The position numbers were made by a program, and so were the translations under genes. This document shows, piece by piece, positions 8,052 through 29,328 of a DNA stretch of 64,000 bases. Below the pieces are notes generated by a model, which had not been told where the DNA came from, did not search any database, and saw only the letters and a program-made list of their open reading frames with translations. The first letter of the stretch is position 1. Every line of letters begins with the position of its first letter. Source of the stretch: Parabacteroides faecis (GTDB taxonomy: Bacteria > Bacteroidota > Bacteroidia > Bacteroidales > Tannerellaceae); contig NZ_BMPB01000001.1 of the NCBI RefSeq assembly GCF_014647375.1, positions 186,001-250,000 of the forward strand, given 5' to 3'.

Positions 8052-9002
8052 ATGAAGAGAGTCTTCCTGTTTATTATTGCATTGATTACCTGTACGATGA
8101 GCGTACGGGCCCAATCTGATATGCAGTTAAGCCAGTACTTCCTGGGAATGGGATATTACAACCCCGCCTATGCCGGAACAACCGGCGACCTGAATATGCT
8201 CGGTCTTTTCCGCCAGCAATGGATAGGCATACCCAATGCGGGTACCTCCTTCTTTGTCATTGCCGATATGCCGCTGAAACTAGGTAGCTTAAACAATGGT
8301 ATCGGATTGGTTGTCAACACGGAGAGCATCGGATTGTTCCAATTCACGAAGGTCGCTTTCCAATACGCCTATAAGCAGAAATTGTTCGGAGGGACATTGA
8401 GTATCGGACTGCAGGGAGGTATATACAACGTCGGTTTCGACGGAACAAAGATACATATCCCCGAAAGCCCGGACCATACCCCTGCTGAATCCGACCCGGC
8501 CCTGCCGACCACTTCGGTACAAGCGATGGCCCTCGATGTAAATGCCGGTATCTATTACACGCATAAGAATTTCTATGCGGGTTTCGGAGCCACTCACCTG
8601 ACAGCCCCGGAAATGGCATTGGGTGAAACGACAAATTATTACATTCCTATGGGATTAAATTTGACAGGCGGATACAATATTCAGCTAAGGAACCCGTTGT
8701 ATGAATTACAGCCTTCTGTTTTCTTGAAGACAGATATGCAAACCTTCCAGGCGGATATCACCGCACGGATGGTCTATAATAAAATGTTTAACGGAGGTCT
8801 TTCCTGGCGTATAAACGAGTCGGTAGTAGTATTATTGGGAGCCACATTCGGCAGATTGCAGGTTGGATATGCTTACGATTTCCCTACCACGGCCATGTTA
8901 AAAGGGAGTTCCGGTAGCCACGAAGTGTTGGTGCGCTACCAGTTGAAGTTGAAGAAGACAAAAACAGGAAAGAACAGACATAAAAGTGTACGTATATTAT
9001 AG
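8052..9002 (+). CDS. porP: T9SS outer membrane protein PorP/SprF family
   Basis: A 316-residue PorP/SprF-family beta-barrel of the type IX secretion system. It has a signal peptide ending VRAQ (about residue 20), then SQYFLGMGYYNPAYAGTTGDL, the family's conserved opening, and FRQQWIG. Alternating hydrophobic strands run to the C-terminus. The first position in a porP-gldK-gldL-gldM-gldN operon is the same order as in Porphyromonas gingivalis, which supports porP rather than one of the many stand-alone sprF paralogues. It would anchor the secretion or attachment machinery in the outer membrane with the GldK/GldN ring. Confidence 0.93.
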   Translation: MKRVFLFIIALITCTMSVRAQSDMQLSQYFLGMGYYNPAYAGTTGDLNMLGLFRQQWIGIPNAGTSFFVIADMPLKLGSLNNGIGLVVNTESIGLFQFTKVAFQYAYKQKLFGGTLSIGLQGGIYNVGFDGTKIHIPESPDHTPAESDPALPTTSVQAMALDVNAGIYYTHKNFYAGFGATHLTAPEMALGETTNYYIPMGLNLTGGYNIQLRNPLYELQPSVFLKTDMQTFQADITARMVYNKMFNGGLSWRINESVVVLLGATFGRLQVGYAYDFPTTAMLKGSSGSHEVLVRYQLKLKKTKTGKNRHKSVRIL

Positions 9003-9005
9003 TAT

Positions 9006-10433
9006 ATGAAAAAAGTATTATTAGTACTTATGGCAGTAGCCTTGCTTACCTCATGTGGTAAATCCCTTTCCGGAGCGGGAGGAGAAGTTACCGGGGTAAG
9101 ATCTGTGGCTTTTAACGAACCGTCACCTTATGGCATGGTTCTGATCAAAAGAGGTTCGTTCGAGATGGGACCGGCAGACAAAGACTCCTTGTGGGGGATC
9201 AATCCTGAAACAAAAGGTGTTTCGTTTGACGCTTTCTGGATGGACGAAACGGAAATAACCAACGCCAAATACCGCCAGTTCGTCTACTGGGTGCGCGACT
9301 CCATTATCCGCGAACGCCTGGCAGACCCGGCTTACGGTGGCAACGACCTGTTCAAGATTACCGAAGACCGGTATGGCGAACCTGTCACCCCGCATCTGGA
9401 CTGGAGCCGTCCGATCCCCTGGAAACGGGCGAACGAGGATGAGCTGCGCGCCATCGAAAGCGTTTATTACGTACACCCGATCACCGGCGAGAAACGTCTG
9501 GACGAAAAGCAGATGGTCTACAAATACGAATGGTATGACTATACCGGAGCCGCCCTTCGCAAAAACCGCCTGGACCCGGGCGAACGTGTCCGCAACACAG
9601 ATATCCAGGTAAACCCGAACGAGGTGATCATGATCTCCAAGGATACCGCCTATATCGACGACGACGGCAACATCATCAACGAAACCCTGACCCGCCCGCT
9701 GAGCGGTCCGTGGGACTTCCTTCACACCCGCATCGTAAACATTTACCCGGATGAAACCTGCTGGGTGAACGACTTCAATAATGCTTACAACGAGCCATAC
9801 ATGCGCATGTACTTCCAGCACCCGGGATATGACGATTATCCTGTCGTGGGTGTTTCCTGGGAACAGGCTACCGCATTCTGCGTATGGCGTACCGATATGT
9901 TCAAGCAATCGCTGAACTTCCCTGCCGGACAGGCTATCGAACCGTTCCGTCTACCGACGGAAGGCGAATGGGAATACGCCGCCCGTGCCGGAAAGAACGA
10001 GAACAAATACCCGTGGTCGACCGACGAACTGCAGAATGCCAAAGGTTGTTTCATGGCGAACTTCAAACCCGGAAAAGGAAATTATACGGAAGACGGTCAC
10101 CTGATCCCCTCACGTGTAGGCTCTTTCGCCCCGAACCAGTTCGGCCTGTATGACATGGCTGGTAACGTGGCAGAATGGACTTCTACCATGTATTCCGAAT
10201 CAGGACCGAGCCAAATGAGCGACATGAACCCGGATCTGCGCTACAACGCAGCGAAAGAAGACCCGTATGCCATGAAGAAGAAAGTCGTACGCGGCGGTTC
10301 ATGGAAAGACGTGGCACAATTCATCCGCTCGGATATGCGTACATTCGAATATCAGAACGAAACACGTTCGTATATCGGTTTCCGTTGCGCACGTACACAG
10401 ATCGGTTTCTCCCGTTCAAAAGGAAAGAAATAA
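9006..10433 (+). CDS. gldK: T9SS ring lipoprotein GldK/PorK
   Basis: A 475-residue outer-membrane lipoprotein with lipobox LLTSC. It has the formylglycine-generating-enzyme-like (SUMF1) fold of GldK/PorK: MVLIKRGSFEMGP, WMDETEITNAKYRQFVYWV, FRLPTEGEWEYAARAG and, at the C-terminus, VVRGGSWKD and IGFRCAR. With GldN it builds the periplasmic ring of the type IX secretion system under the outer membrane. It starts three bases after porP and is followed by gldL 20 bases on. Confidence 0.96.
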   Translation: MKKVLLVLMAVALLTSCGKSLSGAGGEVTGVRSVAFNEPSPYGMVLIKRGSFEMGPADKDSLWGINPETKGVSFDAFWMDETEITNAKYRQFVYWVRDSIIRERLADPAYGGNDLFKITEDRYGEPVTPHLDWSRPIPWKRANEDELRAIESVYYVHPITGEKRLDEKQMVYKYEWYDYTGAALRKNRLDPGERVRNTDIQVNPNEVIMISKDTAYIDDDGNIINETLTRPLSGPWDFLHTRIVNIYPDETCWVNDFNNAYNEPYMRMYFQHPGYDDYPVVGVSWEQATAFCVWRTDMFKQSLNFPAGQAIEPFRLPTEGEWEYAARAGKNENKYPWSTDELQNAKGCFMANFKPGKGNYTEDGHLIPSRVGSFAPNQFGLYDMAGNVAEWTSTMYSESGPSQMSDMNPDLRYNAAKEDPYAMKKKVVRGGSWKDVAQFIRSDMRTFEYQNETRSYIGFRCARTQIGFSRSKGKK

Positions 10434-10453
10434 TATAAGAAACATACAACATT

Positions 10454-11557
10454 ATGGGAAAATATAGAAGATATAAAAACAGAATAGAGATGTTCCTTTC
10501 CAGCGATATGGGAAAGAGAGTACTGAACTTCTGTTACAGCTGGGGAGCATCTATCGTTATTATAGGTGCCATGTTCAAATTGCTGCACCTGCCGTACGGT
10601 AACCAGATCCTGTTCATCGCCATGACAGTGGAAGCATTGGTATTCTTTATCTCTGCCTTTGAACATCCTTCAAACGAATATCACTGGGAAGAAGTATTCC
10701 CCGTCCTGAAATCGAAGAATCCGATGGACCGCCCGGACTTTGCCGGAACAGGCATGTCTAACCTGATCAATTCGTCGGAAAATATGGAAGACGACAATGC
10801 CGGCGGAGGTATCAATATAAATGTCGGTGCTGCCAAGAGAGCAGGTATTGCGGGCGACCTGAGCGGAGCATCCGTTCTGGGTAACCTCGATGTCAGCGAA
10901 GAAGATACAAAGAACCTGAGCGAAAGCATCAAGAAACTGAGTGGTGCCGCCGAACAGATCTCAAAGATGGCAGAACTGACCGAAGCAACCCAGAAATACC
11001 TGGAACAACTGTCGGGTATGTCGGAAAATATGGAACGTTTCAGCCATGTGACCAACTCGCTGACCAACGTATCCGACACGCTGCTTAATTCCTATAAGAG
11101 CATTACGGACAATTCAGACGGTATCAACCAGAACTCACGCGGTTACGTGCAGCAGATGGAAATGCTGAACCGTAATATTTCCGGCTTGAATACAATCTAC
11201 GAAATACAATTGAAAAGTATCAGTTCACAGATCGAATCCATCGAACATATCAACGGCGGCCTGAACCGCATCCGCGAAATGTACGACGGTTCGGTAACCG
11301 ACAGCTCTGTTTTCCGCAACGAAACGGAAAAGATGACCCGTCAGCTGGCCGAACTGAACCAGGTATACAGCCGTTTGCTACAGGCGATGACGGTCAACAT
11401 GGGTGCAGCCCCAGCCTACCAGCAACCGGCTTCGCAGCCCCAGCAGCCTAATTACCAGCAGCAGACTGCCTATCAGCAGCCGTACCAGCAACCGTACGGA
11501 TATCAGCAGCAGGCTCCGTATACAAATAATCCAGGCCAGCAACAAGCCGGTAGATAA
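10454..11557 (+). CDS. gldL: T9SS inner membrane motor protein GldL/PorL
   Basis: A 367-residue inner-membrane protein with two transmembrane helices in the first 75 residues (the [15 protein letters not shown] and [18 protein letters not shown] region), the stator-like part of the GldLM proton-powered motor. Helix 2 carries the buried glutamate (VEALVFF) expected for proton use. The cytoplasmic part is a long helical/coiled-coil region (about 130-300) rich in Ser, Asn and Gln. The last 45 residues form a Gln/Pro/Tyr-rich low-complexity tail (repeated YQQP) that is not required by the family's fold. Confidence 0.95.
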
Positions 11558-11580
11558 CAAACAAACGAAACAAAAGAAAG

Positions 11581-13149
11581 ATGTCCGGAATAGCTAATAA
11601 TCCCAACTCGCCCCGTCAGAAGATGATCAACCTGATGTATCTGGTGTTCATCGCCATGATGGCACTGAATGTGTCATCGGAGGTACTCGACGGTTTCGAG
11701 CTAGTGGAAGACAGTTTGCGCACTTCTATCGACAATTCTACGCATCGTAACGATATCGTGGCCGGCGAACTGAATACCTACTACCAGTCCAATCCCGAAA
11801 AGGTAAAAGAATGGTACGACAAAGGTATACAGGTAAAGCATGCCTCCGACAGCCTGTACAACTACGTACAGAACCTGAAAGAACGTATCGCAGAGATTGC
11901 CGACGGTAAAGATGCCAACGTAAATAAGATCGAACATAAAGACGACCTCGAAGCCGCTTCACGCATCATGCTCGGCCCGGTTACCGGCGAAGGTAAAAAG
12001 CTGCGCGAAGCCATCGACTCTTACCGTACCATGATGGGTGAAATGGTGGAAGATAGCGCCAAGACCCGCATCCTGGAAGCGAGCCTGAGCACAACCCCTC
12101 CCCACAAAGCCGGTATCAATACCCGTACCTGGGAAGAGGCGTTGTTTGAAAATATGCCGGTCGCAGCCGCTGTGACATTGCTGACCAAGTTGCAGAGCGA
12201 TATCCGTTATGCAGAAGGCGAAGTATTGAACAACCTGCTGAACAGCGTCGACGTAGGTGACTACCGTGTGAACCAGATGACCGCACAGGTCATCCCGGAA
12301 AGCCAGATCGTTATGCGCGGAGGACAGTACAAGGCGAACATCGTCCTGTCTGCCGTCGATTCGACGAAACGTCCGACCGTGTTTGTCAACGGTAAGGAAT
12401 TGCCAGCAGACAGCCGCGGCCAGTTTACAGCCATTGCCGGTGCTCCGGGTACTTATCCCGTCAAGGGATATATCGAGATGCCGAACAACGACGGCAGCGT
12501 GATGCACCAGGAGTTTGAAAGCGAATACTTCGTTACGGAGCCGAGTGCTACCGTAGCACCGTTGCTGATGAACGTATTATATGCCGGTATCGCCAACGAT
12601 ATGCGTATCGCCGTACCGGGTGTACCGAGCGGAAACATCACGGCCAGCATGACCAACGGAACCCTGACACGCAAAGGCGACATCTGGGAAGCCCGTCCGT
12701 CGAAAGTTGGAACCGATGCCGTCATATCGGTAAGCGCCCGTATGGCTGACGGCCGCAGTGTGGAAATGGCAAAGAATACGTTTCGCGTACGTGCCCTGCC
12801 CGACCCGATGCCGTATATCGAATATAAGGATCAGAATGGCAACATGCGTAAATTCCGCGGTGGAAACATGACCAAGCGTAACCTGGTCGACACCGAAGTC
12901 CTGCAGGCTGCTATCGACGACGACATATTGAATATCAAATTCGATGTATTACGTTTCGAATTGATCTTCTTCGACTCGATGGGAAATGCGATCCCTGAAG
13001 TATCACAGGGTCCCCGCTTCTCCGACGGTCAGAAGGAGAGGATCCGTCGTCTGACAAGAGGCAAACGTTTTTACATCAGAGGCGTGGTGGCCAAAGGTCC
13101 CGACGGTCTGGAACGTACCCTTACACCGATCGAAGTCATTGTAAATTAA
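11581..13149 (+). CDS. gldM: T9SS motor/periplasmic shaft protein GldM/PorM
   Basis: A 522-residue protein with one N-terminal transmembrane helix ([19 protein letters not shown], about residues 18-36) that pairs with GldL, and a large periplasmic part built of a helical domain and three beta-rich domains. The start ([16 protein letters not shown]) is diagnostic for GldM/PorM. It spans the periplasm to the GldK-GldN ring and passes motor energy to the translocon. The downstream gap to gldN holds a palindromic hairpin element. Confidence 0.96.
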
Positions 13150-13151
13150 AT

Positions 13152-13176
13152 GTAGGGGCGGTTTGCGAACTGTCCC
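13152..13176 (+). repeat. GTAGGGG palindromic repeat, copy 3, before gldN
   Basis: GTAGGGGCGGTTTGCGAACTGTCCC folds into a nine-pair stem (13155-13176) with a TGCG loop. Two positions that differ from copy 1 are still paired as G-U. It ends 17 bases before the gldN ATG, next to the AAGGA that would be its ribosome site. Confidence 0.7.
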
Positions 13177-13193
13177 AAATAAGGATATAAAAT

Positions 13194-14285
13194 ATGAAAC
13201 GTTTTTATTACATACTGGCAATTGCAAGCGCCCTGTTCTTCACTGCTACCTCCATGCAGGCACAGGAAGAATCGGAGAACACCCAGCAACGGGCAAGAAG
13301 AACCCCGCAAGCCTCCCGCGGAGAACGGGCAAACGATAAAAAAGACACCGGTATGCCCGAACTGACCGTACGGGCACAGGATATGAACGAGCGTATGACA
13401 CAGGAAGTGGGAAACGCCCGCTGGATGCGTGTCATCTATCGTCAGATCGACCTGATGAAAGAAAAGAATGCCCCGCTTTATTATCCCGTCACACCGATGA
13501 ACGGACAGATGAACCTTTTCTCCATCATCTTCAGTCTGATCAGTGAAGGCAAAATAGATGCGTACCAGTACGAAGACGGTTACGAAGATTTCAGCGAAGG
13601 TAACAAGATCGACCTGAAAAAGATGCTCGACAGCTTCGGTATCTACTACGAAGAAATAGCCGGACAAGGTAATCAGGGAACGACGTTCGTTATCAACGAA
13701 AGCGATATACCTTCCGAATATGTCCGTTCTTATTACGTGAAGGAAGCCTGGTATTTCGACCAGAACAATTCCGTATTCGACGTAAAGACACTGGCTATCT
13801 GCCCGATCATGACCACTTCCGGTGATGTCGGAGAGCTGACGATGCCGATGTTCTGGATCCCTTACGAAAATATCCGCCCGTATATCAATACAGCGTTCAT
13901 CATGACGTCGAACATCAACAACGCGATGACCTTCACACTCGACGATTATTTCCGCCGCCGTATGTTCGAAGGTGATATTTTCAAGACACAGAATCTGATG
14001 AACCTACCGTTGCAGGCATATTGTCCGACTCCGGATTCAATAAAGAAAGAGCAGGATCGTATCGAAGGCCAGTTGGTTGCCTTTGAAAAGTCACTCTGGT
14101 TCCAGCCCGACACTACCCAGGTAGAAGATCCGAAAGCAGCTAAGAAGGCCAGCAAGGCCTCCGCTCGCGGACAGAGAGGCGCAACCACCGAGAAAGCGAA
14201 AGAAACCAAAGAAAAGACCATCAAGACAAAAGCTCCGAAAGCCGAGAAATCCTCTCCGGTACGCAGCGTACGTCGCAGACGATAA
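13194..14285 (+). CDS. gldN: T9SS ring protein GldN/PorN
   Basis: A 363-residue periplasmic GldN/PorN protein, partner of the GldK ring in type IX secretion. It has a signal peptide to about residue 23 (SMQAQ) and a linker rich in Arg/Gln/Glu. The conserved GldN domain follows (WMRVIYRQIDL, NAPLYYPVTP, FSIIFSLI, VRSYYVKEAWYFD). The C-terminus is a 60-residue basic Lys/Ala-rich tail (from about 305) ending VRSVRRRR, which is longer and more basic than the core family and of unknown use. It is the last gene of the operon. No strong terminator is seen directly after it. Confidence 0.95.
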   Translation: MKRFYYILAIASALFFTATSMQAQEESENTQQRARRTPQASRGERANDKKDTGMPELTVRAQDMNERMTQEVGNARWMRVIYRQIDLMKEKNAPLYYPVTPMNGQMNLFSIIFSLISEGKIDAYQYEDGYEDFSEGNKIDLKKMLDSFGIYYEEIAGQGNQGTTFVINESDIPSEYVRSYYVKEAWYFDQNNSVFDVKTLAICPIMTTSGDVGELTMPMFWIPYENIRPYINTAFIMTSNINNAMTFTLDDYFRRRMFEGDIFKTQNLMNLPLQAYCPTPDSIKKEQDRIEGQLVAFEKSLWFQPDTTQVEDPKAAKKASKASARGQRGATTEKAKETKEKTIKTKAPKAEKSSPVRSVRRRR

Positions 14286-18200: not shown

Positions 18201-19553
18201 ATCATCAAGATATACAGTATTAAAAAGGGATAATGTTACTAAATCGAATTTGTTATCTGTATTTGTCTTTACTGCATCAAAATACTTCTTTGCTAATAAA
18301 TCTTTCTGATATGCAACATTTTTCTTACTCAATGCCACGCTCCATGCCTCTGTTGCAGCCATTACCTCTTCATTAGCTGCACTCAACTCATCATTACGAG
18401 TATCAACAAGAGCTTGAGCCTCTTCCAATGCATCTACCGCGTGGACTAAAGTTGTATGTAAACCTTCAATCTTCTTCTTCAGATCATCATTGATGTTTGC
18501 ATTGTTCTTTATGGATTCATCGATAGACTGCAATCTTTTATTAAGATCTTCTAGGTCATATCTATGTCCCCGCAAAGAAACGCTAATTTCCTGTAATTGT
18601 TTTACCAATTCATTATAGTTTCCTTTCTCTTCTTTCAGCATCTTCGCTGTTACAGCATAATCCTCTTTCTGATCATTTAATGCTTCCAAAGCGGCGTCTA
18701 CCAGTTTTACCTTAGCTTCGTAAACAGCATAAGCTTTTTCATAAGCTTCATAGGCATCAGCCACTTCACCATAAGACAATGTACCCGGCTTCGGATCAAC
18801 AGCTTCATATTCTTGTTCTACCCATTTGTTAGGCATACCATCGGAGACACCTTTTGCAAATGCGAAAGCTACTTTGTCATCAGCCTGAGTCTGAAGTTTA
18901 CTGTTCAAATCATACTTGCTTAACCATACCGGGCCAGCTACTACCGGTTTGATTCTGAAAAAATCGACTCTTTCCTGAACATCTTTTGTTGCATACTTGA
19001 CAGCAGCCACTTTACCAGAACCATCTGATGCAGGAAGCAAAGTCATGATAGAGTCTGCATGAATATATGTTTCCGGAGTTCTTGCGATTGTCAGGTTTTC
19101 ACCAGCCTCATCAAGCATCCATGTCCATGAAACATCCTTTCCGCCTAAATGGGAAGCAGTCCACGCTCCACCTTTATAATCCTGCGCCTTTGCAGGATCG
19201 AAAGACAAAGTAAGGTGATGAGCCAGGTTTCTGAAAATAAAAGCAGTTCTGGATTTGTCTACATTAGAATCTTTTTCTACAGTCCAAAGAGATTCTCCAA
19301 TATTAGCCTGAAAATAAGGAACAAAGGCCAATTCATAGTGGAAACCGCCGCCTTGCAGATCTTTTACTTTCTGCATAACCAGCACATTATAACCATCTGA
19401 TAACTGATAAGCTCTACCATCTGTAACTTTAGATACAGCTTCTATAGAAGGAGCCGTAGCTTTAGTATACACATCCTGAGTCTGAGCATAACCAGTCCCA
19501 ACAGTTGTCGCCAGTAACATACCGGCCACCAAAGTAGAAAACTTTTTGTTCAT
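15225..19553 (-). CDS. DUF6383-type large secreted surface protein with coiled coil
   Basis: A 1442-residue exported protein: signal peptide to about residue 23 (GTGYAQ), then beta-rich repeats with SDGYNVLVMQ-like and DGKYLMVDTAYL segments. The C-terminus (about 1370-1442) matches the DUF6383 domain: SNGAVIVKGAEGKKVVINNVLGQTIA split by short turns, then VPAGVVYVKV. Residues about 258-650 form a long, charged, largely helical coiled coil (heptads such as LEDLNKRLQSIDESI) inserted between beta-rich parts. DUF6383 proteins are numerous in Parabacteroides and are probably cell-surface or S-layer-like. No minus-strand TAnnTTTG promoter occurs between the ATG and 20040. The only consensus promoter there faces away, between 18-bp inverted repeats, so expression is probably switched by inversion and off in this orientation. 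Confidence 0.85.
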   Translation of the reverse strand: MNKKFSTLVAGMLLATTVGTGYAQTQDVYTKATAPSIEAVSKVTDGRAYQLSDGYNVLVMQKVKDLQGGGFHYELAFVPYFQANIGESLWTVEKDSNVDKSRTAFIFRNLAHHLTLSFDPAKAQDYKGGAWTASHLGGKDVSWTWMLDEAGENLTIARTPETYIHADSIMTLLPASDGSGKVAAVKYATKDVQERVDFFRIKPVVAGPVWLSKYDLNSKLQTQADDKVAFAFAKGVSDGMPNKWVEQEYEAVDPKPGTLSYGEVADAYEAYEKAYAVYEAKVKLVDAALEALNDQKEDYAVTAKMLKEEKGNYNELVKQLQEISVSLRGHRYDLEDLNKRLQSIDESIKNNANINDDLKKKIEGLHTTLVHAVDALEEAQALVDTRNDELSAANEEVMAATEAWSVALSKKNVAYQKDLLAKKYFDAVKTNTDNKFDLVTLSLFNTVYLDDTKSWNDFFALVDIATESDKELFFELAKELYDNAKTAGIDETVAITSDINDVNTGLGKVTNDYVTSVNDAYKVTEQEAEDAASELEKCTVAVNESVANKADAEEALETAKAKEEKARTEYITVRNSIIHNNELDKDLLALLNKLEDQKSELEATIEKEENEEATLRKSCTTSIDRILALSQDLEFDKGDVIYHMHKWALADRAAAKAARTAQGLYAVYANLNAVKTPYWLSLKADDGKYLMVDTAYLSEEVAGINHLTFNTREYKKFENPNAPLAARDINGRFNFRFLYFPTQDSLRIEADGYNQKDVTTTYWKDRADSEIRYKASYAPGFEQNLVKVAVLGNHREVTVGSSEYIKRPNALEWTINDRIGLSLAGPVNVINVPAGLYYLDIVKANTQENGARLMLDVDNYSLTKVTPADQGKMDFAHLPAAKWYVEATPTDFGGYPNIYNMETGEKLNLGAYTVEEKDGKYYVTISQYIYQGSVEEKNDTFVLSVAPESEEGYYRTATGDPRALFTLGYLNISSGLNVEVGNKTINNDSVLVVSADSEDKFRLHRIGDNKEYGYGNSLERGLYQISLYNPNKLNQHNKYVQITNVDGTEMMVVSNAASATNFYLKEVNDVDGTHYYALINAAWDKKAGVVDATGLIKAEDITAETRTSAFALVVDSTRYYREFTKEELGEKNILKFYRTRSTDKEYLYASEAAELNLLAVEGKGDNAEALAEMTVIPTTETGVLMPQYFIARNVTEQKGSVKWCGEDHTSLADSLSCDHTHVTPDTLFGNFLVNLKIDAKYNKYNWENKYTRLAFLKGYVVKEEGTMPGTGNYTKLFVDGKQVTIAENKHNAAKFEFRLINDDEAQDFLIESESWKNDNAFAGAARPMTEGGWLKVQNGVPVIVKDNFENFDASSADIYNVESSEGSSVANEDITTSTITVIASNGAVIVKGAEGKKVVINNVLGQTIANTVVTSSEATIAVPAGVVYVKVEGEAAVPAIVK

Positions 19554-19645
19554 AATCTTTTGTTTAATATTAATAATAGTGTTACTTAAAAAGCCTTTTA
19601 ACCTTAGATTTGGAACGCCTCTGAGAGTAAATGACTAGATTAAAC

Positions 19646-19822
19646 GTTCCTTTTTTCTCGCCATTTTTCAGGTAGTATCTTGTCTTGGTAATAAGAAGTC
19701 CGATTTTTGTACTCTAATTGCTATTCAATTGATAAGAAAGAGGATAGGATTGAAAAAAAATTATGGGAAAGAATTGTAGGTTTAAAACTTATGTCTAACT
19801 TTGCTGGCGAGAAAAAAGGAAC
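19646..19822. promoter_or_regulatory. Candidate invertible promoter segment (inverton)
   Basis: GTTCCTTTTTTCTCGCCA (19646-19663) and its exact reverse complement (19805-19822) bound a 141-base spacer. Similarity continues outward imperfectly to TGACTA/TAGTCA (19632 and 19836). The spacer holds one full consensus promoter that points right, away from the DUF6383 gene. Inversion about these repeats would put its -7 box at about 19665-19672 on the minus strand, giving a leader of about 105 bases to the ATG at 19553. The rest of the 636-base gap (19823-20034) is AT-rich with no ORF or promoter that I can see. No recombinase gene is in the window. Confidence 0.7.
19774..19803 (+). promoter_or_regulatory. 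Promoter inside the candidate inverton
   Basis: TTG (19774-19776), 19 bases, TAACTTTG (19796-19803) is an exact Bacteroidota consensus promoter. It ends one base before the right inverted repeat. In the present orientation it drives no ORF and would make RNA antisense to the transglutaminase-like gene. Confidence 0.75.
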
Positions 19823-20034
19823 CTTTCTTTTAGTCACTACTTAGACTTCGTAATTAATTATATTACTTCACATTAAACCATTATTCAAGCTATCTATATT
19901 TAGAGTTAAATAGGTTATCTACGATTCATAACTTACTATTAATCAATATGCTTCATTTTAGCTATTCCAAAGGAATTGTTAAATGGAGATATTTTAGTCT
20001 GTTTGCATGGAGAAAAACAGGTATTTTCAATCAC

Positions 20035-20063
20035 AAAAAAGGCCATCGTTCGAAACGACAGCC
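20035..20063 (-). terminator. Second minus-strand terminator
   Basis: On the minus strand GGCTGTCGTT-TCG-AACGATGGCC is followed by six T. G-U pairs complete the stem. It lies about 65 bases beyond the first terminator of the transglutaminase-like gene. Confidence 0.75.
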
Positions 20064-20123
20064 TTGGTTCATTATTCTTATAAAAAGTTGATGTGTACAA
20101 AAAATGTAAAAATACACTAACAC

Positions 20124-20165
20124 AAAAACCCCGATTATCAATAGTTCATCTACTGACAACCGGGG
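20124..20165 (-). terminator. Main terminator of the transglutaminase-like gene
   Basis: Minus-strand RNA forms a 16-pair stem, CCCCGGUUGUCAGUAG with CUAUUGAUAAUCGGGG, in which three pairs are G-U. It has a five-base loop and then UUUUUGUG. The wobble pairs exist only in the minus-strand RNA, which fixes its direction. Confidence 0.85.
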
Positions 20166-20189
20166 TCGGATATTTATTTCAGAAGTATT

Positions 20190-22880
20190 TTACAACTTAT
20201 GTATCACCTTCATCAACTGTTCACCCAAACCAATGGTATATCCCTGAGAGACGAACACAACACGGTTGAAAGTATCTGCAATGATAAAGATAGGGAGCTG
20301 GCTGGCATTTGCCAGTTTCATGGCCGATGCAATCTCCTTCTGGATATGGTTGTCAGCATCGATACCGTAAGTGATCGTGCTAGGCAGATCGCCGAACTCT
20401 TTCGGATCGAAGTTCTGGTAACCCTTTTCGTCCGGGAACAGAAGTACCATACTGCGGCCCCATTCTTCCAGGTCTTTCTTCACAGCTGCTATGTCGCGCA
20501 TAGCGTGGTTGGTCGGTTCCTGACGGGCACCCAGGATAGCGACAACGAAATAACCACGGCCTGTCGTTGCCAGTACGCTGGTTTCTTCGCCGTTGTCGGC
20601 ACGTTTGAACTTGTTTTCCGAATTGAAATTACCGATCACCTGTACTTCGTCAGTGTTTTCACGCATTTCCAGTTTTGTGGAGGTCGTCTTGTCAGGTTCC
20701 ACATTAAAGAAAGAAACTTCAGCCAATACGCTGCCGTTAGCCATACGGGTTCCGGTAACCATCATATAGTTACCTTCGTCCATGCTCAACGGAGTCTTCA
20801 ACATGCTGCTCCAGGTGTCGCCTACACCCATATCCACATTGCCGCGGCGTTCAAAGTTCAGGGTCTGCAACTTAGCATCCGGTAATATCTTAGCAATAGT
20901 GAAATGGCTGTAATATTTCGGATCCTGCAATGCTTTGATCGGAGCATAGGATGCGACAACCTTACCCTGTTTAGCCGTCGTCTGAACAGCAGCTTCAAAA
21001 TCCACGTCCATCCAGTTGCCGTCTTTCCAATATTGCACCTTGCGGGCAACCGGTTCGATACGTGCGGGGATACCCAGACTACGGGCAACGGCTACAAAGA
21101 AGATATCACGCGATCCGGTATCAGCCACACGCGATTTGAATACACCCATCGGCATAATCGGGATGCGCTGTGAATTGAGTTCGTTCTTGATGGTGATATT
21201 CTTCTTCACCCAATCTACCAATGCCATCGGATCATTGATAGCCTTATCCGATAAATCCTTATCGATATTCTCTGCAAAGAATTTCTTATACGGAGTCAGG
21301 AACTCATTCTGAACACGAGGATTCATGACATAACGTACATAGATATCTCCAAATTCTTCTTTTTCTTTTGGAGGCATATAATCGGTAAGAATAGCAACCG
21401 TATTGTTCAAATGATCCGATAAAACAGAGGCAGGAGTATCTCTCAGGTCTTTTGCAGAAATCACATCCAACAAGGCCATTGCTCTCCCATAATTTTTATT
21501 CTCACGCAGGAACTTCTCAATTTCCATCCAGTTACCACGGCTACCGATCATAAAATCAGCTGTTTTCAACGGATCGAGTCCTAGCTCTTTTGCCAATGCT
21601 TCGGCCTTTTCTTCCGTATAGAAAGTGGCAACGTATTTATTACGGATCGCATCCTCTTCCAACAAGCGGGCTGCATTCGCTTCCTTTTGTTCAGGAGTTA
21701 CTTCGACAGCGATAGAACCTTCAACCGGAGGAATAACATCGAGGGCTACAGCTCCGATGGCATCACCAGGCTTCTTATCCAGCTTGATGGTTGCATCGCC
21801 TTTACCGAAGGAGACTTTATCGAAACCGAATTTGCCGTCTTTGGTTGCCCATACGAACATATCCCCTTTACCGGCTGTCAAGAATGTCTTTCCTTCGGCA
21901 TCTGTTTTCTTATTGGCAACAGTATAAAACTCGGCATAATTGTAGATTTTGAATTCCACATCGGCACCGGATACCGGCTTGCCTTCCTCATCCACTACAG
22001 TAACAATCGCTTTACCTGTCGGAGCATAGTTGTCGATCACATTGATCTCTGTATAACCGTCTGTTTCAAGCATGACTTCTTCCGGACCATGATATTTACC
22101 GAATACTTTCGTATGCATCAACATACCACGATAAGCCGGGCCGTTAAACCATCCCAGGTTCAGAACCGGTTCCGGTTCGCAAGCACCCAGGAAATACCAT
22201 TTACCATTTACCCAGGCTTCTACCCAGGCATGGTTGTCGTCGGTATGTGCCCAACGCGGAGTATATACCTGGCGGGCAGGGATGCCTACCGAGCGAAGTG
22301 CTGCCACCGTAAAAGTCGACTCCTCACCACAACGTCCGTAAGCAGTCTTTACAGAAGCCAGCGGAGAACTTGTACGGGCATCCGACGGCGTATAAATTAC
22401 TTTTTCATGACACCAGTGGTTCACTTCCAGCACGGCATCATATAAAGACAAGCCTTTCACACGATCTTTCAGTTCATCGAAAAAGACCATACGGCTTTCA
22501 TCCAGGTTCTCGTTGTTCACGCGGATAGGCAGAACGAAATGGCGAAAGATCTCCTCAGGGATGCTGTCGCCCCAGGGCATTTCTTCTTTTGCCTTGAAAG
22601 AACTGCGGATATTATCCAGATAAAGTTTTCCATCATAATCGGTGATGTCGCCTATCGGCATATAGGCATACAGAAATGTAAGTGCCTCTTTTTCTTCCGG
22701 CGTCATTTGTTGATTGAAAACTGTGAACAGATCTCCGTCAGGCAAAGCCGCCTGTTTGGCCTGGAAATCTTTCTCCACTTCAGCTCTGAATGCATCGTCA
22801 GAGATGAAATGCTGCTGTTTGTTACATGCCGTCCCTATCAGGAGGATGAACAATAGTGCGAATAATTGTGTTTTATGCAT
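20190..22880 (-). CDS. Transglutaminase-like lipoprotein with degenerate second domain
   Basis: An 896-residue lipoprotein when started at ATG 22880; the lipobox is LLIGTAC. A further 24 in-frame codons upstream run through the promoter and are not used. The first transglutaminase-like domain keeps the catalytic Cys (about 184, in YGRCGEES) and His (about 217, in DNHAWVEAW). An Ig-like/carboxypeptidase-regulatory segment follows (GKAIVTVVDEEGKPVSGADV). A second domain (VARSLGIPARIEPV) keeps the scaffold, but the Cys position reads within TGSRD, so it should be inactive. The C-terminus resembles a thioredoxin-like fold (PIFIIADTFNRVVFVSQGY). It probably remodels or cleaves envelope peptides; the substrate is unknown. 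Confidence 0.85.
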   Translation of the reverse strand: MHKTQLFALLFILLIGTACNKQQHFISDDAFRAEVEKDFQAKQAALPDGDLFTVFNQQMTPEEKEALTFLYAYMPIGDITDYDGKLYLDNIRSSFKAKEEMPWGDSIPEEIFRHFVLPIRVNNENLDESRMVFFDELKDRVKGLSLYDAVLEVNHWCHEKVIYTPSDARTSSPLASVKTAYGRCGEESTFTVAALRSVGIPARQVYTPRWAHTDDNHAWVEAWVNGKWYFLGACEPEPVLNLGWFNGPAYRGMLMHTKVFGKYHGPEEVMLETDGYTEINVIDNYAPTGKAIVTVVDEEGKPVSGADVEFKIYNYAEFYTVANKKTDAEGKTFLTAGKGDMFVWATKDGKFGFDKVSFGKGDATIKLDKKPGDAIGAVALDVIPPVEGSIAVEVTPEQKEANAARLLEEDAIRNKYVATFYTEEKAEALAKELGLDPLKTADFMIGSRGNWMEIEKFLRENKNYGRAMALLDVISAKDLRDTPASVLSDHLNNTVAILTDYMPPKEKEEFGDIYVRYVMNPRVQNEFLTPYKKFFAENIDKDLSDKAINDPMALVDWVKKNITIKNELNSQRIPIMPMGVFKSRVADTGSRDIFFVAVARSLGIPARIEPVARKVQYWKDGNWMDVDFEAAVQTTAKQGKVVASYAPIKALQDPKYYSHFTIAKILPDAKLQTLNFERRGNVDMGVGDTWSSMLKTPLSMDEGNYMMVTGTRMANGSVLAEVSFFNVEPDKTTSTKLEMRENTDEVQVIGNFNSENKFKRADNGEETSVLATTGRGYFVVAILGARQEPTNHAMRDIAAVKKDLEEWGRSMVLLFPDEKGYQNFDPKEFGDLPSTITYGIDADNHIQKEIASAMKLANASQLPIFIIADTFNRVVFVSQGYTIGLGEQLMKVIHKL

Positions 22881-22899
22881 AGTGTTAATTTTATCCCGA

Positions 22900-22907
22900 C
22901 AAATATA
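22900..22907 (-). promoter_or_regulatory. -7 box of the transglutaminase-like gene
   Basis: The minus strand reads TATATTTG, an exact TAnnTTTG element, 20 bases before the ATG at 22880. The -33 region does not show TTG. Its position rules out the longer upstream start at 22952. Confidence 0.5.
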
Positions 22908-23019
22908 CGTAATATATTCATTAGTCAGTATATGAGCCATATATTTCGGCATTCATTCCATTGTTGTTTCAGATTTTTTTTGTTATTTTGAAGGATAATT
23001 GAGTAAACCGTTTCCGCTT

Positions 23020-24617: not shown

Positions 24618-26816
24618 CTACTGGATTTCGATAGACATATCAGACTTTATATTTTCTGCAGAGGTAGCCAAATGTAAGACAAAAGTACCCGGTTCTACAA
24701 CGAATCGTTTCTGTGCTTCGCTGTAAAAAGCCAAAGAACTTACCGGAATATCTATTTCTACCTGTTTACTTTCACCTGCTTTCAGAAAAACTTTCCTGAA
24801 ACCTTTCAGTTCTTTTACCGGACGCATGACTGAACATTCCGGATCGCTTACGTAGAGTTGGGCAACTTCGGCACCATCTCTTTTTCCGGTATTCGTCAAT
24901 GTGAAAGTGGCTTTGATCGTTTCCCCCTGGCCATACGTTTTCTTGTCGGTAGCCAGATTTCCAAAAGAGAAGTCAGTATAAGACAGACCATAGCCGAACG
25001 GATAGACCACCGGTAACCGTTTCGTGTCATACCAGCGATAACCTACCAGGATATCTTCTTCATATTTTACTTTCAGATCTCTTCCGGGGAAATTACCTAA
25101 AGCCATATCCGGAGATTGTTCCAGTGTAACAGGGGTGGTAAAAGGCATTTTGCCACTGGGATTCACCTTCCCGGTAATGGCATCCACCAAGGCATTTCCA
25201 CCTTCCATTCCGTTATACCATCCCCAAAGGATTGCCGGGGCACAGATATCCAAAGCAGCCATATTCACCGGCGAACCGGCAACGATCACCACGATCGTTC
25301 TGGGATTGGCTTTGATCACTTCCTGGATCAATTGCACCTGACCGTAAGGCAATTCCATATATTGACGATCTGCCGATTCCGTATCATAATCATGATTTAA
25401 CCCTCCGACAACGATCGCCACATCGCTGTTGCGGGCTGCGTCGACTGCTTCCTTCAATAACTTCTCGTTTACCTGATTTCCATCAGTAAAACTGCCGGCA
25501 TTCTGCCCGTTATTACTTCCTTCGATAAAAGTGGATAGTTTTTCATATCCCTGTGCAAAATTGACTTTCACACGGTCACCCAGTTTCATACGGATTGCTT
25601 CCAGCGGAGTGACTTCATACAAAGACTTGATCTCGGAACTCAGTCCACCATCCGAATGCCGACGGGTAGCATTATCGCCGATCACAGCAATGCTTTTCAC
25701 CGACGAGATATCCAACGGCAGCAGGTTTTCTTTATTCTTCAATAACACAATCGCTTCGGCAGCGGCCTGATAAGCAGCCTGCTGATGCTCCGGCGTATTG
25801 ATAGAACCCCGGTTAAAACGTTTCTTTGGGTCCAGAACTTTCGTTTTGATCATGACACGGAGTACATTACCTACTTTTTCATCCACCAGGCTTTCAGCCA
25901 CTTCACCCTTCTTTACCGCCTCTATCAGAGGATTGGCAAAATACCAGTCATCATAATTTTCAATATTGGTCCCCATTTCCAGATCCAGACCGGCAATAGC
26001 GGATTTTACCGTACTGTGGGCTGCCCCCCAATCGGTCACATACACTCCTTTAAAGCCCCATTCATCACGAAGGATGTCGCGTGCCAGATATTTGTTTTCT
26101 GCACACCAATCGCCTTTATATTTGTTATAGGCGGCCATCACGGTCAGGGCACCGCCTTCCTGTACTGCTGCTTTGAATGCAGGCAGATAGATTTCACGGA
26201 GGGCACGTTCGCTACATTCCACCTCGACAGTGGTACGGTCCGTTTCCTGGTTGTTCAAAGCGAAATGCTTCACGCTGCATGCGACATCACGGCTTTGCAG
26301 TCCCTGGATATACTGAACGGCGAGTACAGAGTTCAGATAAGGGTCCTCGCTCATATATTCGAAGTTACGTCCGCACAACGGGCTACGGATAATATTCACA
26401 CCGGGACCGAGCAATACGTCTTTTTTACGCCAGCGGGCTTCTTCACCCAGTACTTCCCCACGGTAATAGGCAAGCTCCGGATTCCAGGCAGCCGCAAAAG
26501 CCGTACCTGTCGGAAAATAGGTCGACGAATCGGTAGTCCAGTTGGCATATCCCCAGTCATGCCGGTTAATCTCTGCACGGACCCCATGAGGACCGTCGCT
26601 CAGGCTCCATTCCGGAATACCTAAACGCTTGATTTCCGAGACATAAAACTTGGAATTTCCATGTAACAAACTAACTTTTTCTTCCAGTGTCATCCGACGG
26701 ATCAGCTTCTCGATCTGTTTTTCTATCTGCTGATCCTCTTTATTTATAGGCTGTGTACCCGATACCCCAGTGGTCATACAAAAGGAAAGCACAGCCATAG
26801 TCATTAATTTCTTCAT
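24618..26816 (-). CDS. GH3 beta-glucosidase
   Basis: A 732-residue exported GH3 enzyme that removes non-reducing-end beta-glucose from oligosaccharides, probably in the periplasm. Residues 1-20 are a signal peptide. The (beta/alpha)8 domain carries LSDGPHGVR, the KH pair (about 183-184) and the nucleophile Asp262 in VYVTDWGAA. The alpha/beta sandwich starts near 375 (SIAVIGDNA) and a fibronectin-III-like domain closes the chain (from about 640, DGAEVAQLYVSDPE). It is the last gene of the PUL, ten bases after the GH2 gene. In xyloglucan breakdown it would remove backbone glucose once xylose is gone. Confidence 0.93.
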   Translation of the reverse strand: MKKLMTMAVLSFCMTTGVSGTQPINKEDQQIEKQIEKLIRRMTLEEKVSLLHGNSKFYVSEIKRLGIPEWSLSDGPHGVRAEINRHDWGYANWTTDSSTYFPTGTAFAAAWNPELAYYRGEVLGEEARWRKKDVLLGPGVNIIRSPLCGRNFEYMSEDPYLNSVLAVQYIQGLQSRDVACSVKHFALNNQETDRTTVEVECSERALREIYLPAFKAAVQEGGALTVMAAYNKYKGDWCAENKYLARDILRDEWGFKGVYVTDWGAAHSTVKSAIAGLDLEMGTNIENYDDWYFANPLIEAVKKGEVAESLVDEKVGNVLRVMIKTKVLDPKKRFNRGSINTPEHQQAAYQAAAEAIVLLKNKENLLPLDISSVKSIAVIGDNATRRHSDGGLSSEIKSLYEVTPLEAIRMKLGDRVKVNFAQGYEKLSTFIEGSNNGQNAGSFTDGNQVNEKLLKEAVDAARNSDVAIVVGGLNHDYDTESADRQYMELPYGQVQLIQEVIKANPRTIVVIVAGSPVNMAALDICAPAILWGWYNGMEGGNALVDAITGKVNPSGKMPFTTPVTLEQSPDMALGNFPGRDLKVKYEEDILVGYRWYDTKRLPVVYPFGYGLSYTDFSFGNLATDKKTYGQGETIKATFTLTNTGKRDGAEVAQLYVSDPECSVMRPVKELKGFRKVFLKAGESKQVEIDIPVSSLAFYSEAQKRFVVEPGTFVLHLATSAENIKSDMSIEIQ

Positions 26817-26826
26817 GTTTTCTTAT

Positions 26827-29328
26827 TTATTCAACTTCTATTTCAGTGACAGCATCCGGTAGTCCGGCAGCTGTTGCTTTTACACGGATAACCCCTTTTT
26901 TGCCTGTGTTTTGAACAACGACAAGAGCTTTTCCGTAAAACGCATTCCTCTCCGGTTTTTTCAGGCTGTTGGGATCATTCTGATCACCGTTGTCCGTTCC
27001 GGCAATAAACCCGTCTCCTTCCACCGAGAAACGAATCAGGTTATCGGCACGGGGAACCAGGTTACCGGCTTTGTCCCTCACTTCAACGGTTATAAAAGAG
27101 AGATCCGTACCATCTGCCTGAATAACCCGACGGTCAGGGAGTAATGCTAGCTCGGCAGCCTCGCCTGCAGTATGGATTTCCTGTGCCAGCACTTCTTTTC
27201 CGGCTTTACGCGATACGGCTTTCAGCGTACCCGGTGTAAATGGAACACGCCAGGATACATGGTAGGTACTGTCATTCTTACTTTTCGTGCCGAGACTCTT
27301 ACCATTCAGGAATAGTTCCACCTCATCCGCCTGGTTGTAATAGGCCCAGACATCTACCTCTTCACCCTCTTTCCAGTTCCAATGCGGGAACAGATGCAGG
27401 GTCGGCTGGTCAGTCCATTCACTCCGGTACATATAATAAACGTTTTTCGGGAATCCTGCCAGGTCGACGACTCCAAAGAAACTGCTGCGACTCGGCCACC
27501 AGTAAGGTGTCGGCTCACCCAGGTAATCAAAACCAGTCCAGATAAACATTCCGGAAGCATACGGCAAACGTTTTACCTCGTGCCAGGTTACTTCATGGGT
27601 CGATCCCCAGGGAACATGGCAGTTGTCGTAAGAAGAACAAAGGTGTTCAGGACGATCGAAAGGCTTGTCCCATGATTCGGGCCAGATATACATTTCGTCG
27701 GATGGCATCTGGTAATAACCGCGTGTCATCAAAGCCGATGTAGATTCACTGACGATCAGCTTCTTGCCCGGATAGACCTGTGGGAAAGGGGCATAGTCTT
27801 TCTCATGGTAGTTGAAACCATACACATCGAGTGCACCGGAACGGAATAGATGGTTGGCCGGATCTACACCGTTATTCCCGGCAGTTACCGGACGGGTAGT
27901 ATCCAACTTTCTGACAATATCAGCCAAAGCGATCGTGATCAACGACTGGACACTCATTGTGCTATCCTCCAGCAAAGCCGGATCTATCTTATGACCGGCA
28001 TTCAGGATCAGGTTCGCTTCCTGCAGGCTCAGTGTATCGGCATCCGCATGCGACCATTGTTCAAGTACCTCATTTCCGATACTCCACATGAAAACGGAGG
28101 CATGGTTACGGTCACGCTTGATCTGGTCGGTCAGGTCCCGTTCATGCCATTCGTCAAAGTATTGTGCATAATCGTAAGGCGATTTTCGTTTTCTCCACAT
28201 ATCGAACGACTCATCCTGTACCAGCAGTCCCATCCGGTCGCATAGTTCCAGTAATTCGGGAGCCGGTGGATTATGGCTGGTACGGATCGCATTGACACCC
28301 ATATCTTTCATTATCTGCAACTGACGCTCGATCGCACGTTTATTAACGGCCGTACCCAGGCATCCCAGGTCATGATGCAGACAAACACCCAACACCTTTG
28401 TCGGTTCTCCGTTCAGATAAAAACCGGTTGCCTCATCCCACCGGAAAGTACGGATACCGAAGGTTGTTTCATATCGGTCGGTCAGTTGATTTCCGGATCT
28501 TACTTCAGTTACAGCAGTATATAATGCGGGATTTTTTATTCCCCACAATTCAGGGGCTTTTACCTCAAGAGTCTGTTTAATAATATCGCTACCGTTCTCC
28601 GGTAGTTCGACCGGAAGAGAGGTATGTGCAATAACTTTTCCGGAAGGGGCTTTAATGATTGTCGTCAACTCGGCAGTAACTACAGCTGCATAAGTATTCT
28701 TCAGTGTCGTTTCAATCACTACCGTCGCCCTCTCCTGTGCGACATCCGGAGTTGTAATATTCGTTCCGTACTGATCCACATGAACCTGACCGGTTTTAAC
28801 CAACCAGACATTCCGGTAGATACCTGATCCCGAATACCAGCGTGAGTTAGGTTGCTGCGAGTTGTCAGCCTGTACAACCAGTACATTCTCTTCCTGACCG
28901 TATTTCAAATAAGGAGTCATATCATAACGGAACGAGATATATCCGTTCGGACGGAATCCCAGCAGATGACCGTTCAGCCATACCTTACTGCAACGGTAAA
29001 CACCGTCGAAGTCGATATAGACCTGCTTTCCCCGGTCACTTTCCGGTATCTTGAAATGCTTCCTGTACCAGCCCATACCACCGGGCAAGGCTCCGCCCCC
29101 GGGTGTCGCCGGATTCTCTTTGGAGAAATCTGCTTCGATGCTCCAATCATGCGGAAGGTTCAGTTGCCTCCAGCCGCTATCGTCGGCATCCGGAGCGGAA
29201 AGATCCGCCTGGTTGTCTGTCAGCGAGAATAGCCAGTCGTTGTTAAAGGAGGTTCTCTCACGTCCCTGCCGGTCGGCCGAACAGGCCGCCAACAAGAGAC
29301 TAAAGAATACAATTGCTAATTGTTTCAT
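26827..29328 (-). CDS. GH2 beta-galactosidase-type lipoprotein
   Basis: An 833-residue GH2 enzyme with a lipobox (LLLAAC). It has the sugar-binding jelly roll (about 28-180, HDWSIEADF and GGGALPGGMGWYRKHF), an immunoglobulin-like domain and a TIM barrel with acid/base Glu420 (WSIGNE) and nucleophile Glu528 (IVSES). C-terminal DUF4982-like and Ig-like domains follow (VELFLNGKSLGTK; VRDKAGNLVPRADNLI). In this context it most likely removes beta-1,2-galactose from xyloglucan side chains. The lipobox is followed by SADR rather than a strong acidic export signal, so it could face the periplasm. Confidence 0.92.
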   Translation of the reverse strand: MKQLAIVFFSLLLAACSADRQGRERTSFNNDWLFSLTDNQADLSAPDADDSGWRQLNLPHDWSIEADFSKENPATPGGGALPGGMGWYRKHFKIPESDRGKQVYIDFDGVYRCSKVWLNGHLLGFRPNGYISFRYDMTPYLKYGQEENVLVVQADNSQQPNSRWYSGSGIYRNVWLVKTGQVHVDQYGTNITTPDVAQERATVVIETTLKNTYAAVVTAELTTIIKAPSGKVIAHTSLPVELPENGSDIIKQTLEVKAPELWGIKNPALYTAVTEVRSGNQLTDRYETTFGIRTFRWDEATGFYLNGEPTKVLGVCLHHDLGCLGTAVNKRAIERQLQIMKDMGVNAIRTSHNPPAPELLELCDRMGLLVQDESFDMWRKRKSPYDYAQYFDEWHERDLTDQIKRDRNHASVFMWSIGNEVLEQWSHADADTLSLQEANLILNAGHKIDPALLEDSTMSVQSLITIALADIVRKLDTTRPVTAGNNGVDPANHLFRSGALDVYGFNYHEKDYAPFPQVYPGKKLIVSESTSALMTRGYYQMPSDEMYIWPESWDKPFDRPEHLCSSYDNCHVPWGSTHEVTWHEVKRLPYASGMFIWTGFDYLGEPTPYWWPSRSSFFGVVDLAGFPKNVYYMYRSEWTDQPTLHLFPHWNWKEGEEVDVWAYYNQADEVELFLNGKSLGTKSKNDSTYHVSWRVPFTPGTLKAVSRKAGKEVLAQEIHTAGEAAELALLPDRRVIQADGTDLSFITVEVRDKAGNLVPRADNLIRFSVEGDGFIAGTDNGDQNDPNSLKKPERNAFYGKALVVVQNTGKKGVIRVKATAAGLPDAVTEIEVE

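Follow-up and report, generated by a model that had tools for sequence, protein, structure and literature searches.

A probable Mpi-type promoter switch ahead of a giant DUF6383 gene in Parabacteroides faecis

Gut Bacteroidales alter their surface molecules through promoter inversion. In the window, that is, the whole 64,000-nucleotide stretch of Parabacteroides faecis DNA analyzed here, a promoter enclosed by inverted repeats lies ahead of a giant DUF6383 gene, and the original prediction read it as an invertible promoter in the OFF orientation. This raises the questions of whether such a segment is a switch, which enzyme might flip it, and in which state this element and its relatives are found.

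The element, its gene, and the neighborhood

The starting point was an 18-bp perfect inverted repeat, whose coordinates and exactness were reproduced (GTTCCTTTTTTCTCGCCA at 19646-19663 and its exact reverse complement at 19805-19822); however, the 18-mer is just the inner part of a 32-bp dyad. The repeat search lengthened the arms to 32 nt with 88% complementarity (19632-19663 and 19805-19836). Allowing up to three mismatches, the GTTCCTTTTTTCTCGCCA motif occurs twice in the window, compared with a mean of 0.09 in 100 shuffles, one of which reached two. The matrix score of the proximal site (Table 1) compares with a maximum of 6.1 in one mononucleotide shuffle. At the dyad centers, there is a TT/AA dinucleotide (19647-19648 and 19820-19821), the predicted crossover positions.

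Table 1. Features of the window discussed in the text (window coordinates)
Feature	Position	Strand	Remarks
PorP/SprF, FGE-sulfatase-domain, GldL, GldM, GldN genes	8052..14285	+	part of type IX secretion system (T9SS)
DUF6383 gene, 1,442 aa	15225..19553	-	signal-peptide-like N-terminus (by eye), coiled-coil-like middle, C-terminal DUF6383
Gene-proximal predicted recombination site, 32-bp dyad TGACTAGATTAAACG-TT-CCTTTTTTCTCGCCA	19632..19663	+	matrix score 46.8
Segment predicted to invert, between crossover dinucleotides	19649..19819	.	deduced from dyad centers
Conserved GATAAGAAA element within the segment	19731..19739	+	56 bases upstream of -7 box; putative role
Bacteroidales-type promoter TTG-N19-TAACTTTG, directed away from DUF6383 gene (OFF)	19774..19803	+	TTG 19774-19776, N19, TAACTTTG 19796-19803
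Gene-distal predicted recombination site, same dyad inverted	19805..19836	-	matrix score 43.0
Terminator-like hairpins past the OFF-facing promoter, minus-strand type	20039-20065, 20127-20167
Terminator-like hairpin past the OFF-facing promoter, plus-strand type	20153-20169

The inverted repeats enclose one TTG-N19-TAACTTTG promoter, and its coordinates and strand agree with the earlier description of a promoter directed away from the DUF6383 gene, which is on the minus strand. The reported lack of a TAnnTTTG box facing the gene was also borne out, as none was found between 19554 and 20045. When the inner segment was flipped in silico, the -7 box started at -119, with 111 bases from the box end to the ATG, close to the roughly 105 bases first estimated. 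The promoter layout is consistent with the OFF state as drawn, in which the DUF6383 gene would be silent; the gene is predicted to be phase-variable in this strain. A point against is that a scan for E. coli-type promoters in 19500-20300 gave six, five of them on the DUF6383 gene strand, although the chance expectation is 3.5 (sd 1.9). Three terminator-like hairpins were found in the same interval vs 0.4 expected in shuffles. The GATAAGAAA element is probably part of the promoter rather than of the recombination machinery, because it is retained in the promoters of dyad-free paralogues.

The DUF6383 domain (PF19910) covers residues 1369-1441 of the product (E 2.6e-25; 88.8 bits vs the Pfam gathering cut-off of 23.7). 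Weak matches to SMC-type coiled-coil models in the middle of the protein (about residues 265-413) imply that it may contain a long rod. The gene adjoins porP, gldL, gldM, and gldN homologues, and the FGE-sulfatase-domain gene among them would, by its position, be GldK-like. Export of the product by T9SS is predicted as likely, and DUF6383 proteins are probably located at the cell surface. A P. gingivalis protein with DUF6383 is listed in one source as having a putative T9SS targeting domain (PMC9722745). In five DUF6383 proteins, the T9SS type A model TIGR04183 gave weak matches in three (best 13.8 bits vs a cut-off of 23) and no match in the window protein; PF18962 had no match in four DUF6383 C-termini at E up to 10. 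The profile comparison of DUF6383 with 13 PF18962 domains and the comparison with PDB sequences for T9SS membership gave nothing significant, so the T9SS label rests on the published listing, the weak matches, and the neighboring T9SS genes. Elsewhere in the window, glycoside hydrolase family 3 and family 2 genes stand in tandem (24618-29328) and open a run of large minus-strand ORFs reaching 53420.

A dyad family and a candidate invertase

The host genome (G000; 6.66 Mb, 33 contigs) was searched for other copies of the repeat, a check proposed with the original prediction, and at least 24 dyad pairs were found. The arms of 14 elements yield a 32-bp dyad, roughly TGACTAGAnnAAACG-NN-CCTTTTTTCTCGTCA, which is perfectly symmetric in some elements at other genes and whose center dinucleotide is identical within all 14 pairs. 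The sequence model of the dyad was built from 26 of the 28 arms. Genome-wide scoring covered 150 of 5,507 first-look candidates, so weaker dyads elsewhere may be missed, and a lone dyad on contig C13 was absent from its result. The regions retrieved from this genome (675,569 bases, with overlap between some loci) contain 24 pairs and two lone dyads (C12 and C13); 52 sites (50 distinct) have scores above 20, and the range from 8 to 20 is empty. Eleven of the 24 pairs precede DUF6383 genes, and the other 13 are in front of, or close to, genes of capsule type, SusC/SusD type, and other kinds (labels assigned by reading the proteins). The genome has 16 DUF6383 matches, 11 of them behind a dyad switch. 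At all 11, the promoter signals are directed away from the gene, in nine cases on the evidence of a complete promoter close to the distal arm and in two (C5_99 and C10_269) on that of the -7 box and GATAAGAAA.

Some elements of this genome have other settings. At L080:8953-9138 (G000:C13:233952-234137), a promoter with a dyad on either side separates two divergent capsule-type operons and is assembled facing the right-hand one; flipping it would move expression from one operon to the other. The lone dyad at L160:2687-2718 (G000:C12) is placed between a 673-aa ORF and a 199-aa ORF, with no partner within the 12 kb fetched. By eye, the centers of the G000 pairs (L070-L082 and L152-L163) are TT in 8 of 11 DUF6383 elements and AT in 8 of 13 others, and this difference might be an address code.

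Across six genomes, all 75 DUF6383 pairs have the same two central bases in both partners, while shuffled partners agree in a mean of 24.3 and at most 40 (1,000 shuffles), with the reservation that related genes in this set are not independent. What was found is the form of a serine-invertase site, namely a dyad with a 2-bp center that is the same in both partners. The recommended search for a matching invertase gene also returned a candidate, whose pairing with the sites is predicted. The genome contains PF00239 in four genes and PF00589 at 23 places, 22 of them over the cut-off. The 200-aa product of G000:C13:214216-214815 exceeds the cut-off of NCBIfam NF009949, the master DNA invertase Mpi family (323 bits vs 272), and its ATG is preceded, at a distance of 57 bases, by a dyad with a score of 31.4. 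This dyad is identical in G000, G019, G022, and G024, and the relatives' enzymes are 95-97% identical to that of G000; in more distant Mpi-family homologues, the dyad before the gene is weak or absent. No dyad was found within about 1.5 kb of the other 26 recombinase loci (23 PF00589, 3 PF00239), where the best score was 3.1. The Mpi-family enzyme may act on these dyads, and the pairing is supported by the 2-bp center rule and by the likeness to the B. fragilis Mpi repeat (PMC8375218). A tyrosine recombinase, the first guess from the imperfectly palindromic arms, became less likely given the 2-bp center and the Mpi-family gene. Some genomes of the same genus also encode Mpi-family homologues yet do not match the dyad model (for instance G005, 67%; G012, 81%), so that enzyme and site track imperfectly.

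The dyad model, at E up to 0.01, matched 23 of 60 genomes: 22 of the 36 from the same genus, in some cases through a single weak match, and one of the 24 outside it (G042, E 0.009). The exact arm pattern, made from the arms of this genome and stricter than the model, was found in 37 stretches among 84,980 species genomes, a scan that may omit records very near the window's genome. All are from Parabacteroides (P. gordonii DSM 23371, P. goldsteinii 1001217B_150727_C5, and one Parabacteroides MAG).

Orientation of DUF6383 elements in six genomes

In five relatives, 82 of 120 DUF6383 matches were examined, giving 96 genes over all six genomes; 75 have a dyad pair, two have a single recognized site with an outward promoter, and 19 have none. 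Among those examined, each genome has 7 to 20 paralogues predicted to be invertible. The 75 pairs comprise 68 OFF, called from a complete promoter close to the distal arm, two ON, and five undecided; in four of these five, GATAAGAAA points to OFF, and in one (L199) it is present both ways. A ratio of 68 to 2 fits poorly with random orientation, although no probability is attached to it, because related genes are not independent. With two of 70 scored elements ON, the segments may invert seldom or with a strong bias.

The most direct evidence of inversion comes from comparing assemblies of sister species. The segment of L208 (G022, ON) and that of L244 (G024, OFF) are 95% identical when one is flipped and 34% when it is not, with flanks of 94% and 78% gapped identity (84% and 34% ungapped). 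For L222 (G013, ON) and L213 (G014, OFF), whose distal site is under the automatic threshold yet at the same place, the values are 81% flipped and 36% unflipped, with flanks of 81% and 75%. Stretches of the relatives with runs of N were excluded from the evidence. L177 (G019) was considered as an orthologue of L208 (89% flipped vs 31%), but its flanks are 65% and 59%, and it was not counted. For the window gene, no evident orthologue was found near gldN in G019, G022, and G024, so a flipped counterpart of the window element is unseen; the DUF6383 genes nearest gldN there were dropped as candidates, with 39-47% identity over the last 148-278 residues of the window protein.

Among the 19 dyad-free genes, GATAAGAAA faces the gene in eight and faces away in none, and each of the six genomes has at least one dyad-free paralogue with GATAAGAAA or a promoter facing the gene. 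In the aligned dyad-free promoters, GATAAGAAA, the -7 box, and the leader follow in the order expected of the ON form. These members would be fixed ON, the word "fixed" being drawn from the missing dyads. Directly after some of these promoters, there is a core-like CGATCG or CGTACG, a hint that they may be former switches frozen ON.

Explanations and comparison with known systems

It is likely that the window element is an Mpi-type phase-variation switch of the DUF6383 family. In the proposed mechanism, an Mpi-family serine invertase, for which G000:C13:214216-214815 is the best candidate, would bind both 32-bp dyads, cut at the central TT/AA dinucleotide, and flip the intervening segment. In the assembled orientation, the sole Bacteroidales-type promoter found is directed away from the DUF6383 gene, which would be the OFF state; inversion would bring the start of the -7 box to 119 bases before the ATG, a layout like that of the promoters of dyad-free paralogues, and the gene would be ON. 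Its product would probably be exported via T9SS to the cell surface. The idea of an invertible promoter is supported by the dyad pairs, the agreement of all 75 centers, the two elements flipped between sister species, the paralogues with the ON layout, and the Mpi-family gene. Inversion of the window element in this strain, and the action of the Mpi-family invertase on its sites, are predicted from these comparisons of sequence.

Another recombinase, tyrosine-type or another serine enzyme, might flip the promoters while the Mpi-family enzyme serves other sites. Tyrosine invertases can serve Bacteroides surface promoters (PMC12118408, PMC4747536), and the 23 PF00589 matches, 22 over the cut-off, offer candidates; however, an identical 2-bp center in an otherwise symmetric dyad suits a serine invertase, and among 27 recombinase loci the dyad is found only at the Mpi-family gene, which leaves this explanation improbable. 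The excess of OFF elements (68 of 70 scored) could also mean that the promoters have become fixed OFF, with dyads that are relics or serve for protein binding and DUF6383 genes that form a silent archive. We give this a slim chance: two elements were found flipped between species, and partner centers agree in 75 of 75 pairs yet vary among elements, which suggests continuing constraint or exchange. It is very improbable that the outward promoter has a target of its own, in which case inversion would switch between two genes rather than between ON and OFF. The C13 element does sit between two divergent capsule-type operons, but the gene that follows in the window (20190-22952) is encoded on the minus strand and would be read in antisense by outward transcription; it is also preceded by a terminator-like hairpin of the plus-strand type.

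The best reading is thus a phase-variable family of the Mpi type: probable T9SS proteins, most of them OFF and one fixed ON. One switch design before many giant DUF6383 genes offers a candidate enzyme, a defined site, and clear predictions for ON and OFF. The 68:2 bias, together with a dyad-free gene-facing paralogue in each genome, raises the question of whether one surface protein is the default and the rest are held in reserve. We tentatively suggest, as a possibility that may well prove wrong, that every genome keeps one or more DUF6383 proteins fixed ON while its invertible paralogues are OFF in nearly every cell, that OFF is maintained non-randomly (e.g., by autorepression of the invertase via the dyad at its own gene), and that the 2-bp centers form an address code limiting recombination between unlike elements. 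If true, such a reserve of surface proteins could be used against immunity or phages, for instance.

The literature searched showed no earlier description of this DUF6383 switch, though Fletcher et al. (2007) might contain one. That work reports a surface glycoprotein family under phase variation in Parabacteroides distasonis, which is alike in genus and in concerning a surface protein family; for the capsule loci of P. distasonis, a tyrosine-type recombinase gene is named (PMC8400631). In Bacteroides thetaiotaomicron, S-layer protein genes lie behind promoters flanked by inverted repeats, likewise surface-protein genes with promoters between repeats. The repeat there differs (CCGTTACCTABVRAGTAAC) and is near site-specific integrase genes, and near-identical capsule repeats adjoin tyrosine-type invertases (PMC12118408). 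The design also resembles the B. fragilis Mpi system, in which an Mpi-family serine invertase serves many surface-locus promoters, as is predicted here: Mpi inverts 13 regions, seven of them capsule promoters (PMC4747536), with PSC outside its control (PMC8068183). The repeat cores are related, ARACGTTCGTN in B. fragilis (PMC8375218) and AAACGTTCCTT or AAACGATCGTT here. In contrast to B. fragilis, the site here is a 32-bp dyad, the largest target class found is DUF6383 genes, and almost every DUF6383 element was assembled in the OFF state. The mechanism is already known; the addition is the large, clearly defined target set, the strong OFF bias, and the dyad-free gene-facing member in each genome.
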